From: Sandaracinaceae bacterium
GTDB taxonomy: Bacteria; Myxococcota_A; Polyangia; Polyangiales; JAFGIB01
Direction of reading: 5' to 3'
Length of the DNA: 64,000 nt
Assembly (NCBI GenBank): GCA_017881055.1
Contig: JADGRF010000101.1
Span: forward strand, 31,304-95,303
The notes under the pieces were generated by a model. It did not search any database and was not told the origin of the DNA. It worked only from the letters and a program-made list of their open reading frames with translations. The position numbers and the translations under genes were made by a program. Shown piece after piece: positions 2-7,402 of the stretch. Positions within the stretch are counted from its first letter, which is position 1. Every line of letters starts with the position of its first letter.

Positions 2-3000
2 TGCGACGGCAAGATCGACGAAGGCGAAGCCGGCGCCGGCCTATGCGGTGCGGGCTCGTGCGTGCAGTGCCAGTGCGCGCTCGCGTGCAACGATCGTGAC
101 GAGTTCGGCATCATGTGCCCGACCGGCAAGGCGGCCGTCACGAGCGGCGGCAAGTGCTTCTGCGTGGGCGAGCTGTGCAAGCCTTCGGAGTGCGGCACCG
201 AGACGCTGCCCAAGAAGGGTACGCCGCAGTGCGCACCGGACATGCCCGGCGTGGTCGGAAACTGCGTGTGCAAGAACAATGTGTGCACCTCCCCGTGCGA
301 CGGCGTGATGTGCCCGCCGAACACGGTCTGCGATCCGACCTCGGGCAGCTGCCAGCGCGAGACGTGCTTGCTCCCGCAGTTCGCCTGCAAGAGCAACGAG
401 GTCTGCGACCCGACGGGCGGGGCGTGTTCCGTCGATGCGTGCGCGACGACCACCTGCAAGGCTGGCGAGGCCTGCCGCGATGGCAACTGCTTCGCGAGCT
501 GCGCCAACGTGCAATGCAAGAGCGGCGAGCTGTGCGTCGAGGGCAAGTGCGAGGCCAACAAGTGTGCCTCGACGCCCACGTGCGACATCGGTCAGATCTG
601 CAATCCGGCGGACGGCAAGTGCATCACGCCCGCCGACTGCCAGAGCTCCGGCTGCACCCAGGGCTTCATCTGCAACCGCGCGACCGGCTGCGAAGCCGAC
701 CCGTGCTTGCGCACGACCTGTCCCACGGATCAGACCTGCATCGCCGGCGAATGCACGTCGCGCTGCACGGGAGGCCTGGTCGAGTGCAAGAGCACGTGCG
801 TGGATCCGAAGACCGATCCGACGTTCTGCGGCGCGAAGAACGACTGCACCGGCGCTGACGTCGGCACGCAGTGCGACGGCAGCAAGGTGTGCAGCGTCGG
901 CAAGTGCTCGGCTTCGTGCGCTGCGGGCCTCGTGCAGTGTGGCAAGAGCTGCGTGGATGCCAAGAGTGACGAGATGCACTGCGGCGCGAGCGGCGACTGC
1001 AGCGGCAAGCGCGCGGGCAGCGTGTGCGGCACAGGCTTCATGTGCTCGGCCGGCATCTGTCGGCCGATCCCTTCCGGCGTAGGCAACAACGGCGGCACCG
1101 GTTCGGGCAACGGCACGGGCCCTGGTGCGACCGGAAGCAACCAGGTGGACAACCACAAGCGCGTGCTCGTCACCGGTGGCGGTGGCTGCGCATGCACGGT
1201 GCCCGCGGGTCACGGCACAGGTTCCGATCAGCCCGTGCGCGGTCCAATTGCGTTCGCGCTCGGAGTCCTCTTGCTCGCGCTGCGTAGACTGCGTCGTCGC
1301 GGCCGGATCGCAATGCGCGGCGCGCAGCTCGTGCGCGCACTGCTCACGGTCGTCGGCGTGGGGCTCTTCGCCATGCTCGGCGGCTGTAAGGTGCAACCCT
1401 TCTGCCTCGACTGCGTCGAAGACGCAGGCTCTACGATCACGAACGAGAGCGAGGGCGGCAGCGCCAACCTCGGCGACGCCGGCGCATCGAACGTCGGTGA
1501 CGGTGGCGGCACCAACACGGGCAAGAACGATGGCGGTGCCGGCGCGGGCGGTGCGGGCGGTGGATGCCTCGCGCAGGAGCTCTGCAACGGCAAAGACGAC
1601 GACTGCGACGGCAAGATCGACGAAGGCATCGACACCAAGAGCGATCCGAACAACTGCGGCGGCTGCGGCAAGGCGTGCCGGCCGGACCACGCGTTCGGTC
1701 AGTGCAAGGCTGGCGTCTGCGGCTTCACGACCTGCGACATCGGCTTCGTGAATCTGGACAAGAAAGCCCTCAACGGTTGCGAGTATGCGTGTCAGGCGCA
1801 TCCCGATCCCGACGACTCGGTCTGCGACAACCGCGACAACGACTGCGACGGCAAGATCGATGAAGACGTCAATAAGCAAACCGATCCGCTGAACTGCGGC
1901 GTGTGCGGCAAGAGCTGCCGCTACGCGAATGCCGTCGCGGGCGCGTCGTGCGTGGGCGGCCAGTGCGCGCTCGATCCGTCGAAGTGCGACCCCGGCTTCT
2001 ACGACATCGATCACAACCCGGCGACGGGCTGCGAGTACCAGTGCACGCCTGCGGCCGATCCGACCGAACTATGCAATCGGATCGACGAAGACTGTGACGG
2101 CAAGATCGACGAGACCGTGGCCAGCATCGCCTGCGGCGATGACACGGGTGAGTGCAGCTCCGGCACCACCGTCTGCACGAACGGCCAGACCGTGTGCATG
2201 GGTGGCGTCGGTCCGGCGACCGAGATCTGCGACGGGCTCGACAACGACTGCGACATGAAAGTCGACGAGACCGATCCGCGCATCGGTCCGTGTGGCTCGA
2301 CGCTCGGCACGTGCCAGGCGGGTACGTTCGCCTGCGTGAGTGGCGCGCTCGCCTGCCTCAACGCGACCGATCCGGTCGCCGAGGTCTGCGACGGCCTCGA
2401 CAACGACTGCGACGGTGTCATCGACAACGGCAATCCCGGCGGCGGTGTGTCGTGCGGCTCGAGCTCCACCGGCGAATGCAAGCTCGGCCTGAGCGTGTGC
2501 ATGGCTGGCGCGCTGCGCTGCGCCAACGAGGTAGGTCCGACGGACGAGGTCTGCGACGGCAAGGACAACGACTGCGACGGCGTCGTCGACAACGGCAACC
2601 CGCAGGGCGGCGCGGCCTGCGGCAATAGCTTGGGCGAGTGCGCGAACGGCACGTTCCTGTGTCAGAACGGCTCGCTGGTCTGCAACGGCGGCACGCTGCC
2701 TACGCCCGAGATCTGCGACGGCCTCGACAACAACTGCGACGGTCTGTTCGATGAGAACAATCCGGGCGGCGGCGGTGCGTGCGGCTCCAGCGTGGGTCAG
2801 TGCAAGCCTGGCGTGCAGCAGTGCGTGGCGGGTGGCCTGGTCTGTGCCGGTTCAGTCGCTGGCGTGCCCGAAGTCTGCGACGGCCTCGACAACGACTGCG
2901 ATGGTGTCGTCGACAACGGCAACCCGGGCGGTGGCGGCGGTTGTGGCAGCAGCATCGGCGAGTGCCAGCCCGGTACCGTCATGTGCGTGACCGGCGCGCT

Positions 3001-6000
3001 CGTCTGCACGGGTGCCGTGTCCGGCACGCCCGAGATCTGCGACGGCCTCGACAACAACTGCGACGGCAGGTTCGACGAAGGCAACCCCGGTGGCGGTGCG
3101 ACGTGCGGTAGCAGCGTCGGTGCGTGCAAGACCGGCGTCGAAGCGTGCGTCGGTGGTTCGGTCGTGTGTCAGGGCGCGGTCAACGGCTCGGCCGAGGTCT
3201 GCGACGGCCTCGACAACGACTGCGACGGCGTGGTCGACAACGGCAACCCCGGCGGCGGCGCGACCTGCGGCAGCGGCATCGGCGTGTGCAGGACCGGCAC
3301 GATGCTGTGCCAGTCCGGTGCGCTTTCGTGCGTCGGCGGCGTCTCGGGCAGTGGCGAAGTCTGCGATGGCAAGGACAACGACTGCGACGGCGTGATCGAC
3401 AACGGCAACCCTGGCGGCGGTGCGACCTGCGGCAGCGCCGTCGGCGAGTGCAAGAAGGGCACGCAGCAATGCATCGCGGGCGGCATCGTGTGCAGCGGTG
3501 CGACTGCGCCTGCCGCAGAAGTCTGCGACGGCAAGGACAACGACTGCGACGGCCTGGTCGACAACGGCAATCCTGGCGGCGGCGCGAGCTGCGGCAGCTC
3601 GGTGGGTGAGTGCAAGAAGGGCACGATTCAGTGTCAGAGCGGCGCGCTCTCGTGCGTGGGCGCAGTCAGTGGCACGGCCGAGGTCTGCGACGGCAAGGAC
3701 AACAACTGCAACGGCCTATTCGACGAAGGCAACCCCGGCGGCGGTGCGACCTGCGGCAGCAGCGTGGGCCAGTGCAAGACCGGCACGCTCACCTGCGCGG
3801 GCGGCACGTTCGTGTGCCAGGGCTCCGTGAGTCCCGGGAACGAAGTCTGCGACGGCAAAGACAACAACTGCGATGGCGTCGTCGACGAGAACAACCCGGG
3901 CGGTGGCGCGAGCTGCGGCAGCAACTTGGGTCAGTGCACGGCGGGCACTATTCAATGCGCGTCAGGTGCACTCTCGTGCACGGGCTCGGTCGCTGGCAGC
4001 GTCGAGGTGTGTGACGGTCTCGACAACGACTGCGACGGCAAGTTCGACGAAGGCAACCCGGGTGGCGGTGCGACTTGCGGCAGCTCGGTCGGCGCGTGCA
4101 AGACCGGCGCGATCGCGTGCGTCAGCGGTGCGCTCGTGTGCTCCGGCGCAGTCACGGCCAGCCCCGAGGTGTGCGACGGCATCGACAACAACTGCAACGG
4201 CACGGTCGACGAAGGTAACCCCGGCGGCGGCAGCACCTGCGGCACCGACACCGGCGAGTGTTCGACCGGCACGGTGCAGTGTCAGAGCGGCGCGCTCGCG
4301 TGCGTCGGCGCAGTCGGCGGTACGACCGAGGTGTGCGACACCAAGGACAACGACTGCGACGGCAAGTTCGACGAGAGCAACCCCGGGGGCGGCGCGACCT
4401 GCGGCTCCAGCGTGGGCACGTGCAAGACCGGCGTGCTCACGTGCACCGGCGGCTCGATGCTGTGCGCGGGCGAAGTGCAGCCCATCACCGAGACTTGCGA
4501 CGGCAAGGACAACAACTGCGACGGCACCGTCGACGAAGGCAACCCGGGTGCGGGCGGCGTATGCGGCACCGACGTGGGCGAGTGTTCGACCGGCACCAAG
4601 CAGTGCGTCAGCGGTGCGCTCGTGTGCATGGGCGGCAAGACTCCCACGCCGGAGATCTGCGACGGCAAGGACAACAATTGCGACGGCAACTTCGACGAGG
4701 GCAACCCGGGCGGCGGTGCGACCTGCGGTTCGAGCGTGGGCGCGTGTCACACGGGTACGCTCACCTGCACGAGCGGCGCGCTCAATTGCGCAGGCTCGCA
4801 AGCGGCGGTCGCCGAGACCTGCGACGGCATCGACAACAACTGCAATGGCACTGTCGACGAAGGCAACCCCGGTGGCGGTGGCGCGTGCGGCTCCGACGTC
4901 GGCACCTGCAAGCTCGGCACGCTCACCTGCGGCGCCGGTAGCTTGAGCTGCGTGGGTAATACGGCTCCGGCGACCGAAGTCTGCGACGGCAAGGACAACG
5001 ACTGCGACGGCTTGTTCGACGAGGGCAACCCTGGCGGCGGTGCAGTTTGCGGCTCGAACGTGGGCACCTGCGTGCAGGGCGCGATGACCTGCGTCAGCGG
5101 CGGCTTGACCTGCGTCGGCTCGACCGGCCCCAGCGTCGAGGTCTGTGACACCAAAGACAACAACTGCAACGGCTCGGCCGACGAGACGTTCAACCTGCAG
5201 AACGGCGACACCAACAACTGCGGCAGCTGCAACCACGTCTGCAACCTCCCGAACGCCACGCCCAAGTGCGCGTCCGGCGTCTGCAAGATCCTGGCGTGCA
5301 ACACCGGCTTCGTGGACGCCAACCACACCGACGCCGACGGCTGCGAGCTCACCTGCACCGTCAGCGGTCCCGAGGTGTGTGACGGCCTCGACAACGACTG
5401 CAACGGCCTGATCGACGACAGCCCGCAGCTGCCACCCTCCAGCTTCTGCGGCATCAACATCGGCGAGTGCAAGTCCGGGACGGTCGTGTGCTTGAGTGGC
5501 GGCATCCAGTGTCAGGGCACGGTCGCGGCGGTGCCCGAGACCTGTGACGGCAAGGACAACGACTGCAACGGCAAGATCGACGAGAACTGGAGCATCGGTA
5601 ACTCGTGCAGCGTCGGCGTAGGTGGCTGCAAGAACACCGGCTTCCTGCAATGCAGCGGCGCGTCGGCCTCGCAGTGCTGCACCGCGAAGTCGCCCACGGC
5701 GTGCACGGTGCTCGCAGCGAAGCCCACCGCGAACGAAGCCTGCAACAACATCGACGACGACTGCGACGGCAAGACCGACGAAGTCAGCGGCGTGAGCGGC
5801 GACAACGGCGGCATCGGTCCGGACGACTTCTCCACCGTCACGATCACGGGCGGTGTGAAGGTCTTCCAATACGAAGCATCGCGTCCCGACGCGCAGGCGA
5901 ATGCGTCCGGCTCGGGCAACAAGCTCGCGTGCTCGAACGGCAACAAGATCCCGTGGACCGACGTCACCTGGAACGAAGCGCACGACGCGTGCTGCGCGCT

Positions 6001-7402
6001 CAACGCGGGCGGCCAGTGCGCGGGCAACGGCGGCTGGCGCCTGTGCGACTCGCCAACCTGGCAGACCGCATGCCAGAGCACGACGGCCCTGTGCAAGTGG
6101 GGCTACGGCACCAACTGCTCCACTGCCAACGGTGCGACCAGCGCGGCGCAGGAGTGCAACGGCAAGGAATACGACAGCGACCCGAACACCACGGGCGATC
6201 AAGATGCGCGCCTCGCCACCGGCTCGTTCGGTCAGTGCAAGTCGCCTTGGGGCGCGGCGGGCGACATCTACGATATGTCTGGCAACGTGAAGGAGTGGAC
6301 CAACACGCAGCAGAGCAACGGACTCTTCGAGCTGCGCGGCGGTAGCTACAACAACATCGAGTCCGGTCGCACCTGCGCGTTCAACTACGTGGTCGGCGAT
6401 CAGGCCTTCGCCTTCCAGAACACGGGCTTCCGCTGCTGCAACTACCCGGCGGCGGTTCAGACCTGCGCGTCGTTCACGGCGACCAACGTCCCGCAGTCCA
6501 CACCGGGCAACGCGGACTCCGGCACAGCGGTCTCGACGCTGAGCGTTGCAGCTGGCACCAAGATCACGGACGTCAACGTGATCGGCGCTACCGGCACCAC
6601 CAACCGCATCCTGCAGGATCAGATCACGCTGACCAGCCCCGGTGGCACCACCAGCACGCTGCTCGCGGCCGGCTCGTGCAGCAACGGCATCAACCACAAC
6701 TGGAGCTTCTCGCTCGACGATCAGGCCGCGGCCGGCGCCGCCAGCTGCACCACACCGATCGGTGGCGGCGCGACCGTGCAGCCGACGAACGCGAGCTTCA
6801 ACGGCGCTGCGCTCTCGGTCTTCAACGGTCAGAACAGCACGGGCACCTGGACGATGAAGGTCATCGACAACGTCGCGCTGCCCAGCTGCACCACGTTCAC
6901 CTCGAACGACGTGCCGAAGACCATTCCCGGTAGCCCGACGCCAGTCACGGGCACGGCCACCTCGACCTTGAGCATTCCCGTGACGCAGGGCGGCATCATC
7001 ACCGACGTAAACGTGCTCTCCGCCGTCGGCACGACCGGTCGCTTCAGTCAGACGCAGATCACGCTGACCAGTCCAGCCGGCACGGCGCGCACGATGGTCC
7101 CGTCCGGCCAGTGCGGCAACGCGATCGCGAACTGGAGCTTCAACTGGGACGACGCCGCGGGCAGCGCCACCGTCAGCTGCGCCGCGACCCCAGCCGGCGG
7201 CGGCGCCACGATTCGCCCGAATCAGACGCTCGCAGTCTTCAACGGCCAGGAGAGCAGCGGCACCTGGACCCTGAAAGCGATCGACGGTAACGCCACCGGT
7301 GCGTTCTTCCCGACCATCACGGGCTGGAGCATCCAGGTCTGCATCTCGCCCGTGTATCCGACGATCACGGCGTGGGGCCTGCAGATCTGCGGCACAGACT
7401 GA
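2..7402 (+). CDS. Giant Cys-rich surface protein, 5' truncated by window edge: EGF/TraA-like Cys-rich region, MYXO-CTERM-like segment, lipobox, about 25 MopE-type 'CDGxDNDCDGxxDE' repeats, FGE/SUMF1-like segment, two proprotein-convertase P-domain-like segments
   Basis: Frame is open from base 2 with no stop until 7402. Seen in translation: GGGGCACTVPAG...GPIAFALGVLLLALRRLRRRGR, then MRGAQLVRALLTVVGVGLFAMLGGC, repeated EVCDGLDNDCDGVVDNGNPGGG units, WGAAGDIYDMSGNVKEWT...ELRGGSYNN...GFRCC, and two SFTATNVPQ..TWTMKVID / TTFTSNDVPK..TWTLKAID modules. May be two genes (boundary near 1313). Confidence 0.85.
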   Translation, partial: CDGKIDEGEAGAGLCGAGSCVQCQCALACNDRDEFGIMCPTGKAAVTSGGKCFCVGELCKPSECGTETLPKKGTPQCAPDMPGVVGNCVCKNNVCTSPCDGVMCPPNTVCDPTSGSCQRETCLLPQFACKSNEVCDPTGGACSVDACATTTCKAGEACRDGNCFASCANVQCKSGELCVEGKCEANKCASTPTCDIGQICNPADGKCITPADCQSSGCTQGFICNRATGCEADPCLRTTCPTDQTCIAGECTSRCTGGLVECKSTCVDPKTDPTFCGAKNDCTGADVGTQCDGSKVCSVGKCSASCAAGLVQCGKSCVDAKSDEMHCGASGDCSGKRAGSVCGTGFMCSAGICRPIPSGVGNNGGTGSGNGTGPGATGSNQVDNHKRVLVTGGGGCACTVPAGHGTGSDQPVRGPIAFALGVLLLALRRLRRRGRIAMRGAQLVRALLTVVGVGLFAMLGGCKVQPFCLDCVEDAGSTITNESEGGSANLGDAGASNVGDGGGTNTGKNDGGAGAGGAGGGCLAQELCNGKDDDCDGKIDEGIDTKSDPNNCGGCGKACRPDHAFGQCKAGVCGFTTCDIGFVNLDKKALNGCEYACQAHPDPDDSVCDNRDNDCDGKIDEDVNKQTDPLNCGVCGKSCRYANAVAGASCVGGQCALDPSKCDPGFYDIDHNPATGCEYQCTPAADPTELCNRIDEDCDGKIDETVASIACGDDTGECSSGTTVCTNGQTVCMGGVGPATEICDGLDNDCDMKVDETDPRIGPCGSTLGTCQAGTFACVSGALACLNATDPVAEVCDGLDNDCDGVIDNGNPGGGVSCGSSSTGECKLGLSVCMAGALRCANEVGPTDEVCDGKDNDCDGVVDNGNPQGGAACGNSLGECANGTFLCQNGSLVCNGGTLPTPEICDGLDNNCDGLFDENNPGGGGACGSSVGQCKPGVQQCVAGGLVCAGSVAGVPEVCDGLDNDCDGVVDNGNPGGGGGCGSSIGECQPGTVMCVTGALVCTGAVSGTPEICDGLDNNCDGRFDEGNPGGGATCGSSVGACKTGVEACVGGSVVCQGAVNGSAEVCDGLDNDCDGVVDNGNPGGGATCGSGIGVCRTGTMLCQSGALSCVGGVSGSGEVCDGKDNDCDGVIDNGNPGGGATCGSAVGECKKGTQQCIAGGIVCSGATAPAAEVCDGKDNDCDGLVDNGNPGGGASCGSSVGECKKGTIQCQSGALSCVGAVSGTAEVCDGKDNNCNGLFDEGNPGGGATCGSSVGQCKTGTLTCAGGTFVCQGSVSPGNEVCDGKDNNCDGVVDENNPGGGASCGSNLGQCTAGTIQCASGALSCTGSVAGSVEVCDGLDNDCDGKFDEGNPGGGATCGSSVGACKTGAIACVSGALVCSGAVTASPEVCDGIDNNCNGTVDEGNPGGGSTCGTDTGECSTGTVQCQSGALACVGAVGGTTEVCDTKDNDCDGKFDESNPGGGATCGSSVGTCKTGVLTCTGGSMLCAGEVQPITETCDGKDNNCDGTVDEGNPGAGGVCGTDVGECSTGTKQCVSGALVCMGGKTPTPEICDGKDNNCDGNFDEGNPGGGATCGSSVGACHTGTLTCTSGALNCAGSQAAVAETCDGIDNNCNGTVDEGNPGGGGACGSDVGTCKLGTLTCGAGSLSCVGNTAPATEVCDGKDNDCDGLFDEGNPGGGAVCGSNVGTCVQGAMTCVSGGLTCVGSTGPSVEVCDTKDNNCNGSADETFNLQNGDTNNCGSCNHVCNLPNATPKCASGVCKILACNTGFVDANHTDADGCELTCTVSGPEVCDGLDNDCNGLIDDSPQLPPSSFCGINIGECKSGTVVCLSGGIQCQGTVAAVPETCDGKDNDCNGKIDENWSIGNSCSVGVGGCKNTGFLQCSGASASQCCTAKSPTACTVLAAKPTANEACNNIDDDCDGKTDEVSGVSGDNGGIGPDDFSTVTITGGVKVFQYEASRPDAQANASGSGNKLACSNGNKIPWTDVTWNEAHDACCALNAGGQCAGNGGWRLCDSPTWQTACQSTTALCKWGYGTNCSTANGATSAAQECNGKEYDSDPNTTGDQDARLATGSFGQCKSPWGAAGDIYDMSGNVKEWTNTQQSNGLFELRGGSYNNIESGRTCAFNYVVGDQAFAFQNTGFRCCNYPAAVQTCASFTATNVPQSTPGNADSGTAVSTLSVAAGTKITDVNVIGATGTTNRILQDQITLTSPGGTTSTLLAAGSCSNGINHNWSFSLDDQAAAGAASCTTPIGGGATVQPTNASFNGAALSVFNGQNSTGTWTMKVIDNVALPSCTTFTSNDVPKTIPGSPTPVTGTATSTLSIPVTQGGIITDVNVLSAVGTTGRFSQTQITLTSPAGTARTMVPSGQCGNAIANWSFNWDDAAGSATVSCAATPAGGGATIRPNQTLAVFNGQESSGTWTLKAIDGNATGAFFPTITGWSIQVCISPVYPTITAWGLQICGTD
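2381..5137 (+). repeat. Coding tandem repeat: 17 units of about 54 aa (about 162 bp) of the type E-V-CDGxDNDCDGxxDxGNPGGGxxCGSSxGxCxxGxxxCxxGxLxCxG
   Basis: Hand-counted 17 consecutive NPGGG-class units between GAG codons at 2381 and 5138; 2757 bp/17 is about 162 bp. More degenerate units flank on both sides (about 1573-2380 and 5138-5800). Confidence 0.85.

Follow-up and report, generated by a model that had tools for sequence, protein, structure and literature searches.

The window, by which we mean the whole stretch of 64,000 nucleotides analysed here, begins inside a very long gene. Direct reading finds frame 2 of the forward strand open from the left edge of the window to a stop at 7402, and on contig C216 of the source assembly this frame extends over 4,218 codons in all, with its start about 5 kb upstream of that edge. 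The part upstream of the window encodes a signal peptide followed by a VWA-like domain (FDTSGSM; …TAHAQVKPRFALAFDTSGSMNWD…), and the features inside the window are listed in Table 1. Positions 1175-1312 read GGGGCAC…GPIAFALGVLLLALRRLRRRGRIA and run without a stop into MRGAQLVRALLTVVGVGLFAMLGGC at 1313-1387 and then into KVQPFCLDC, after which come in order a D/G-rich linker, MopE repeats, an FGE-sulfatase-like domain and P-domains. The translation and coordinates given for this tag-to-lipobox junction in the initial annotation proved exact when frame +2 was re-read. Two distinct hydrophobic peaks, with Kyte-Doolittle maxima of 2.02 and 2.28, lie on either side of an Arg cluster, and the hairpin linker reads RRRGRIAMRGAQ. 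On the opposite strand, a 911-aa open frame at 3962-6697 (-) runs antisense to the MopE repeats and is probably a side effect of the repeats and high GC content of this coding sequence.

Table 1. Features of the long reading frame within the window (TM, transmembrane segment).
Feature	Position	Strand	Basis or remark
In-window part of the 4,218-codon ORF	2..7402	+	direct reading and source assembly
Cys-rich repeats, N-terminal half	857..1063	+	resemble MXAN_6577-like Cys-rich protein, far below cut-off
MYXO-CTERM-like signature GGGGCAC	1175..1195	+	Cys codons 1187-1189 and 1193-1195
TM1, GPIAFALGVLLLAL	1241..1282 (approximate)	+	hydropathy; predicted out-to-in
Arg-rich loop RRLRRRGRIA, predicted cytoplasmic	1283..1312	+	hydropathy, junction alignment
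ATG codon	1313..1315	+	not conserved, without preceding SD-like sequence
TM2, h-region of the internal lipoprotein signal, ending ...MLGG	1337..1384	+	hydropathy, alignment
Lipobox Cys and conserved post-lipobox motif C-K-V-Q-P-F-C-L-D-C	1385..1414	+	alignment; Cys codon 1385-1387
Asp/Gly/Asn-rich linker past the lipid-anchor site	1415..1563	+	direct reading
MopE-type putative metal-binding repeat array, C-terminal half	1564..5800 (approximate limits)	+	24 Pfam stretches in the window ORF
FGE-sulfatase/SUMF1-like domain	5912..6436	+	domain search
Proprotein convertase P-domain, best of two stretches	6608..6874	+	domain search

Two signals of different kinds meet at this junction. Tags of the MYXO-CTERM type (TIGR03901) have a short signature motif with an invariant Cys (GCGC-like), a TM helix followed by an Arg cluster, and a position at the C terminus. 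The window carries the motif as GGGGCAC at 1175-1195 and the helix with its Arg cluster, but about 2,000 more residues follow in frame. The TIGR03901 HMM (cut-off 20 bits) finds no match in the window sequence, whereas 18 of 25 homologs match at E<=1, and the cut-off is exceeded, for example, by L037 (22.1 bits), L036 (26.7 bits), L032 (24.1 bits) and the first gene of a split pair described below. What had been called a normal C-terminal sorting tag is thus normal in its motif, TM segment and Arg cluster, and neither C-terminal nor matched by the TIGR03901 HMM, although close homologs do reach the HMM cut-off. Likewise, the supposedly normal N-terminal lipoprotein signal has the charged n-region (RRLRRRGR), the h-region (TM2) and the lipobox (LGGC) of such signals but lies mid-chain with more than 2,100 residues ahead of it; in 13 split relatives it is N-terminal. 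From this layout, the Arg-rich loop is predicted to double as sorting-tag tail and signal-peptide n-region.

The initial annotation held that these signals should not coexist mid-protein, a view contradicted by the recurrence of the in-frame junction across the class. In all, 74 distinct in-frame fused junctions of the window family were read across the window's class, a set gathered with a fused profile and therefore subject to ascertainment. It includes a second copy in the source genome, 47% identical over the junction and likewise stop-free. Matches were obtained in 26 of 57 related genomes (the window's own included), mostly stop-free, and a profile built from 25 junctions picked out junctions, complete and free of stops, in families throughout the class; when 285 genomes were sampled evenly from the phylum, matches at E<=1e-9 occurred only inside the window's order. 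Independently of the fused profile, a fusion-blind DNA motif scan (GCxVDP[FY]C-x3-C) of 85,000 species returned 18 matches, all 18 annotated as myxobacterial, deltaproteobacterial or uncultured MAGs, with 14 of the loci fused and 4 being overlapping gene pairs. The lipobox Cys is kept in every one of the 74 fused junctions and the residue before it is G in 67 and A in 5 (G/A in 72/74), while some lipoboxes in the family are loose at -3. Each of the two sorting-motif positions (alignment columns 10 and 12) is occupied by Cys in 64/74 junctions, the first Cys being replaced or unaligned in 10/74, and the residues after the lipobox are also conserved (P in 61/74, F/Y in 72/74, C in 64/74). The distance from the Arg cluster to the lipobox varies from 16 to 51 residues, with the frame kept throughout. 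An order of elements that recurs in 74 distinct homologous junctions is more than chance would give, which suggests a genuine polyprotein design that has been conserved, as opposed to a sequencing slip. Some of the fused relatives (L039, L050, L128, L131 and others) carry a different, propeller-like C-terminal domain (VWVDxRxGxxNGDIYYRRL) where the FGE-type ending would be, so that the second product differs between relatives that share the junction.

It is extremely improbable that an assembly or sequencing error, or recent pseudogene formation, removed a stop at this junction. The source assembly is indeed fragmented (341 contigs), but the same fused junction occurs in the paralog and in dozens of independent assemblies, including the one- and two-contig genomes G017 and G032, and everything downstream is open to 7402. 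We therefore reject such an error on the grounds of conservation in independent genomes. The first of the two options offered in the initial annotation, a stop lost between adjacent genes, is wrong as a local accident or error given the 74 distinct fused homologous junctions; the second, a polyprotein with predicted cuts at two sites, is well supported by conservation. Its interpretation can thus be regarded as partly supported.

The split relatives show what the two halves look like apart. In 13 relatives the halves are separate ORFs that lie in different frames, and in every one of these pairs the stop codon of gene 1 shares bases with the start codon of gene 2 (ATGA, GTGA or TGATG), which indicates that the halves, encoded by coupled genes, work there as separate chains. 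In L052, the one pair checked, gene 1 ends in a MYXO-CTERM motif over the cut-off (21.4 against 20 bits) and gene 2 begins with MSRFVSSAQLLALVVVLSSC, an ordinary lipoprotein-like signal; gene 1 carries VWA and MopE domains and gene 2 MopE and FGE-sulfatase domains, which is also the domain order of the fused proteins. In a tree built from the C-terminal halves (70 fused and 13 split members) the two forms interleave, with at least six label changes, three of them forced by starred branches; this is a quick tree with some long branches, from which the direction of change is not readable. The pattern suggests that, within the family, two overlapping genes have fused, or a fused gene has split in two, on several occasions. 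By the initial annotation's own test, the idea of a polyprotein was to be given up if all orthologs proved to be two separate genes; this did not turn out to be so, as 70 of the 83 tree members are fused.

Such overlapping pairs, together with the ATG that the window has where a start would be expected, might also suggest that two genes exist here as well, the second half being made by reinitiation at ATG1313 and the open frame between them being incidental. The start codons argue strongly against this. Between the Arg cluster and TM2, no ATG occurs in 66 of the 74 fused junctions, no ATG, GTG or TTG of any kind in 34, and a start codon with an SD-like sequence in only 5; nor does an SD-like sequence precede the ATG of the window. 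In the 34 junctions that offer no start codon, the C-terminal half must come from the same chain. We consider reinitiation highly improbable and reject ATG1313 as an independent start of a second gene, since this codon is neither conserved nor preceded by an SD-like sequence; it is probably an internal Met. Substitution patterns are consistent with a single chain. In close pairs, pooled dN/dS is 0.63 for the linker and TM2 and 0.30-0.33 for the flanks, about a twofold difference by crude Nei-Gojobori counts over few pairs, some sharing a member, and indels are of whole codons. A hydrophobic hairpin linker that evolves faster and stays in frame suits a piece that is kept in frame and then discarded.

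The junction is not confined to this family. A second family, of proteins about 1,400 aa long and unrelated to the first (L106, L154-L173, L062), has the same in-frame tag-to-lipobox junction, with the pattern DEAGNVG…GGCGC–TM–RRRR–TM–GGCDCGG. With L106 as the query, matches were found in 69 of 116 genomes of the order, among them several dozen without a stop, whose open frames of close to 1,400 aa span the junction, and many weaker ones that are ordinary C-terminal tags with a stop; within these genomes the query had no match among those of the window's own family. Three further single ORFs (L107, L140 and L147) have a TM segment and a lipobox-like Cys in frame behind a MYXO-CTERM-like motif, between unrelated flanking domains (FG-GAP and LamG in L140), and look like additional single cases of the junction.

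The source genome contains candidates for the processing machinery. LspA has two matches over the cut-off, GspD is likewise over the cut-off, and two lspA-type genes lie side by side at G000:C249:12071-13215 (L072, L073). A CPBP protease (L071, G000:C300:52689-53018) has the EExxxR and HxxxN motifs, as LPEEALFR and HVLSN, and scores 87.9 bits with the MrtX model NF040593, below its cut-off of 180 and covering the C-terminal half only. All 57 related genomes match NF040593 and none of them exceeds its cut-off; this threshold may fit only Myxococcaceae and miss the enzymes of Polyangia. Since 4 of 14 control genomes also match below the cut-off, the presence of a CPBP protease is by itself weak evidence, and we regard L071 as a candidate myxosortase with putative orthology to MrtX.

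The 74 fused junctions, the interleaving of split and fused forms, the 34 junctions without a start codon, the fast-evolving linker, the machinery and the second family with the same junction lead us to consider it likely that the gene encodes a two-anchor surface polyprotein that is cut at both sites, yielding two lipid-anchored Cys-rich proteins and a discarded hairpin. In M. xanthus, MrtX cuts MYXO-CTERM in a manner dependent on the conserved Cys, and the T2SS helps to bring the product to the surface (PMC11980579); lipidation of this Cys is a proposal of Guo, Haft and Wall 2025 (PMC11980579). Applying this processing to the present gene, the N-terminal signal peptide would start export of the VWA/MopE/Cys-rich half, TM1 would act as a stop-transfer segment that leaves the Arg cluster in the cytoplasm, and TM2 would re-enter as an internal lipoprotein signal and carry out the MopE/FGE/P-domain half. 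The sorting-motif Cys (1187-1195) would be modified, after which a CPBP protease of the myxosortase type would cut distal to it, and the lipobox Cys (1385) would be acylated by Lgt and then cut on its proximal side by LspA. The products would be two Cys-rich lipid-anchored proteins in a 1:1 ratio and a discarded hairpin of about 65 residues. The scheme builds on an unbroken and conserved frame, conserved Cys residues, coupled two-gene equivalents, and a genome with LspA, a CPBP protease and GspD; from these we infer both lipidations, both cleavages, the topology and surface display.

Two alternatives to cleavage at both sites have to be weighed. If the chain were never cut, TM1, the loop and TM2 would stay permanently in the inner membrane as a hairpin to which two large periplasmic domains are attached, with the Cys residues structural or merely acylated. 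Two TM helices flanking an Arg loop are a legitimate topology as well, but such a hairpin needs neither the lipobox-type [G/A]C at the exit of TM2 (72/74) nor the GCxC at the entry of TM1, it is the fastest-evolving part of the protein, and the 13 split relatives have the halves as separate proteins with stand-alone forms of both signals; we consider this reading unlikely. Slightly more doubtful still is a single cut, either by LspA, which would free the C-terminal half and leave the N-terminal half on TM1, or by a myxosortase, which would free the N-terminal half and leave the C-terminal half on TM2. The divergent MYXO-CTERM-like motif of the window, the score of the candidate protease below the MrtX cut-off, and the proposal by Guo et al. 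(PMC11980579) of N-half processing alone for MXAN_5598 speak for one cut, while the retention of both Cys sites through most of the family and the homologs whose first motif reaches the MYXO-CTERM cut-off speak against it. Cleavage at both sites therefore remains our preferred reading.

The literature searched, which covered few subscription journals, held no published description of this junction, and a search on 'midcut' exosortase proteins or a sorting-tag/lipobox polyprotein found no account of such junctions. The name of the midcut-by-XrtH model (NF033207) implies a mid-protein sorting cut and in this resembles our case, and the model matches one junction here weakly (E 0.025). Midcut-by-XrtH proteins, however, belong to an exosortase system, unlike the junction described here. 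The fbcH cytochrome b/c1 precursor of Bradyrhizobium japonicum is one ORF cut at an internal signal peptide into two envelope proteins, but with a single signal peptidase site, no sortase-type signal and no lipid anchors. Internal MYXO-CTERM motifs have been called rare, with MXAN_5598 of Myxococcus xanthus as the example (PMC11980579). Like the window ORF, MXAN_5598 has the motif mid-ORF in a large surface protein, and release and anchoring of its N-terminal part have been proposed; its second half, however, is described as an outer-membrane beta-barrel with an OmpA domain, in contrast to the lipobox start and widespread arrangement found here (PMC11980579). TraA/TraB of M. xanthus resemble the 13 split relatives in that a MYXO-CTERM gene overlaps the next gene, but they are separate ORFs with a different partner protein (PMC11980579). 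In Haloferax volcanii, a C-terminal-type sorting signal in an ArtA substrate likewise works away from the C terminus, going by the title of Abdul Halim et al. 2017 and its citation in PMC11980579; the enzyme and signal are archaeal, and title and citation give no sign of a second lipid-anchored product. Compared with MXAN_5598, what appears to be new is that a lipobox follows the tag directly, that the junction is conserved across the class and interchanges with overlapping gene pairs, and that a second family has it too.

Bacterial polyproteins cut at an internal signal have rarely been described, and internal MYXO-CTERM tags had been reported as a rare oddity. The junctions reported here are also a warning to annotators that tag-to-lipobox ORFs are not fusion artefacts. 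They represent a class of candidate substrates, conserved and abundant, whose hairpin holds both a sortase-type site and a signal peptidase II site, so that a single substrate makes testable the need for a free C-terminal tail, the lipidation of the MYXO-CTERM Cys by Lgt and the order of the cuts. On balance, we favour the broader view that this is a general polyprotein design of the class Polyangia, shared by two or more conserved families of unrelated proteins. In this design, one cytoplasmic Arg loop would serve as both MYXO-CTERM tail and lipoprotein n-region, and a myxosortase and signal peptidase II, cutting the chain at sites separated by a few dozen residues, would yield two lipid-anchored surface proteins in a 1:1 ratio.
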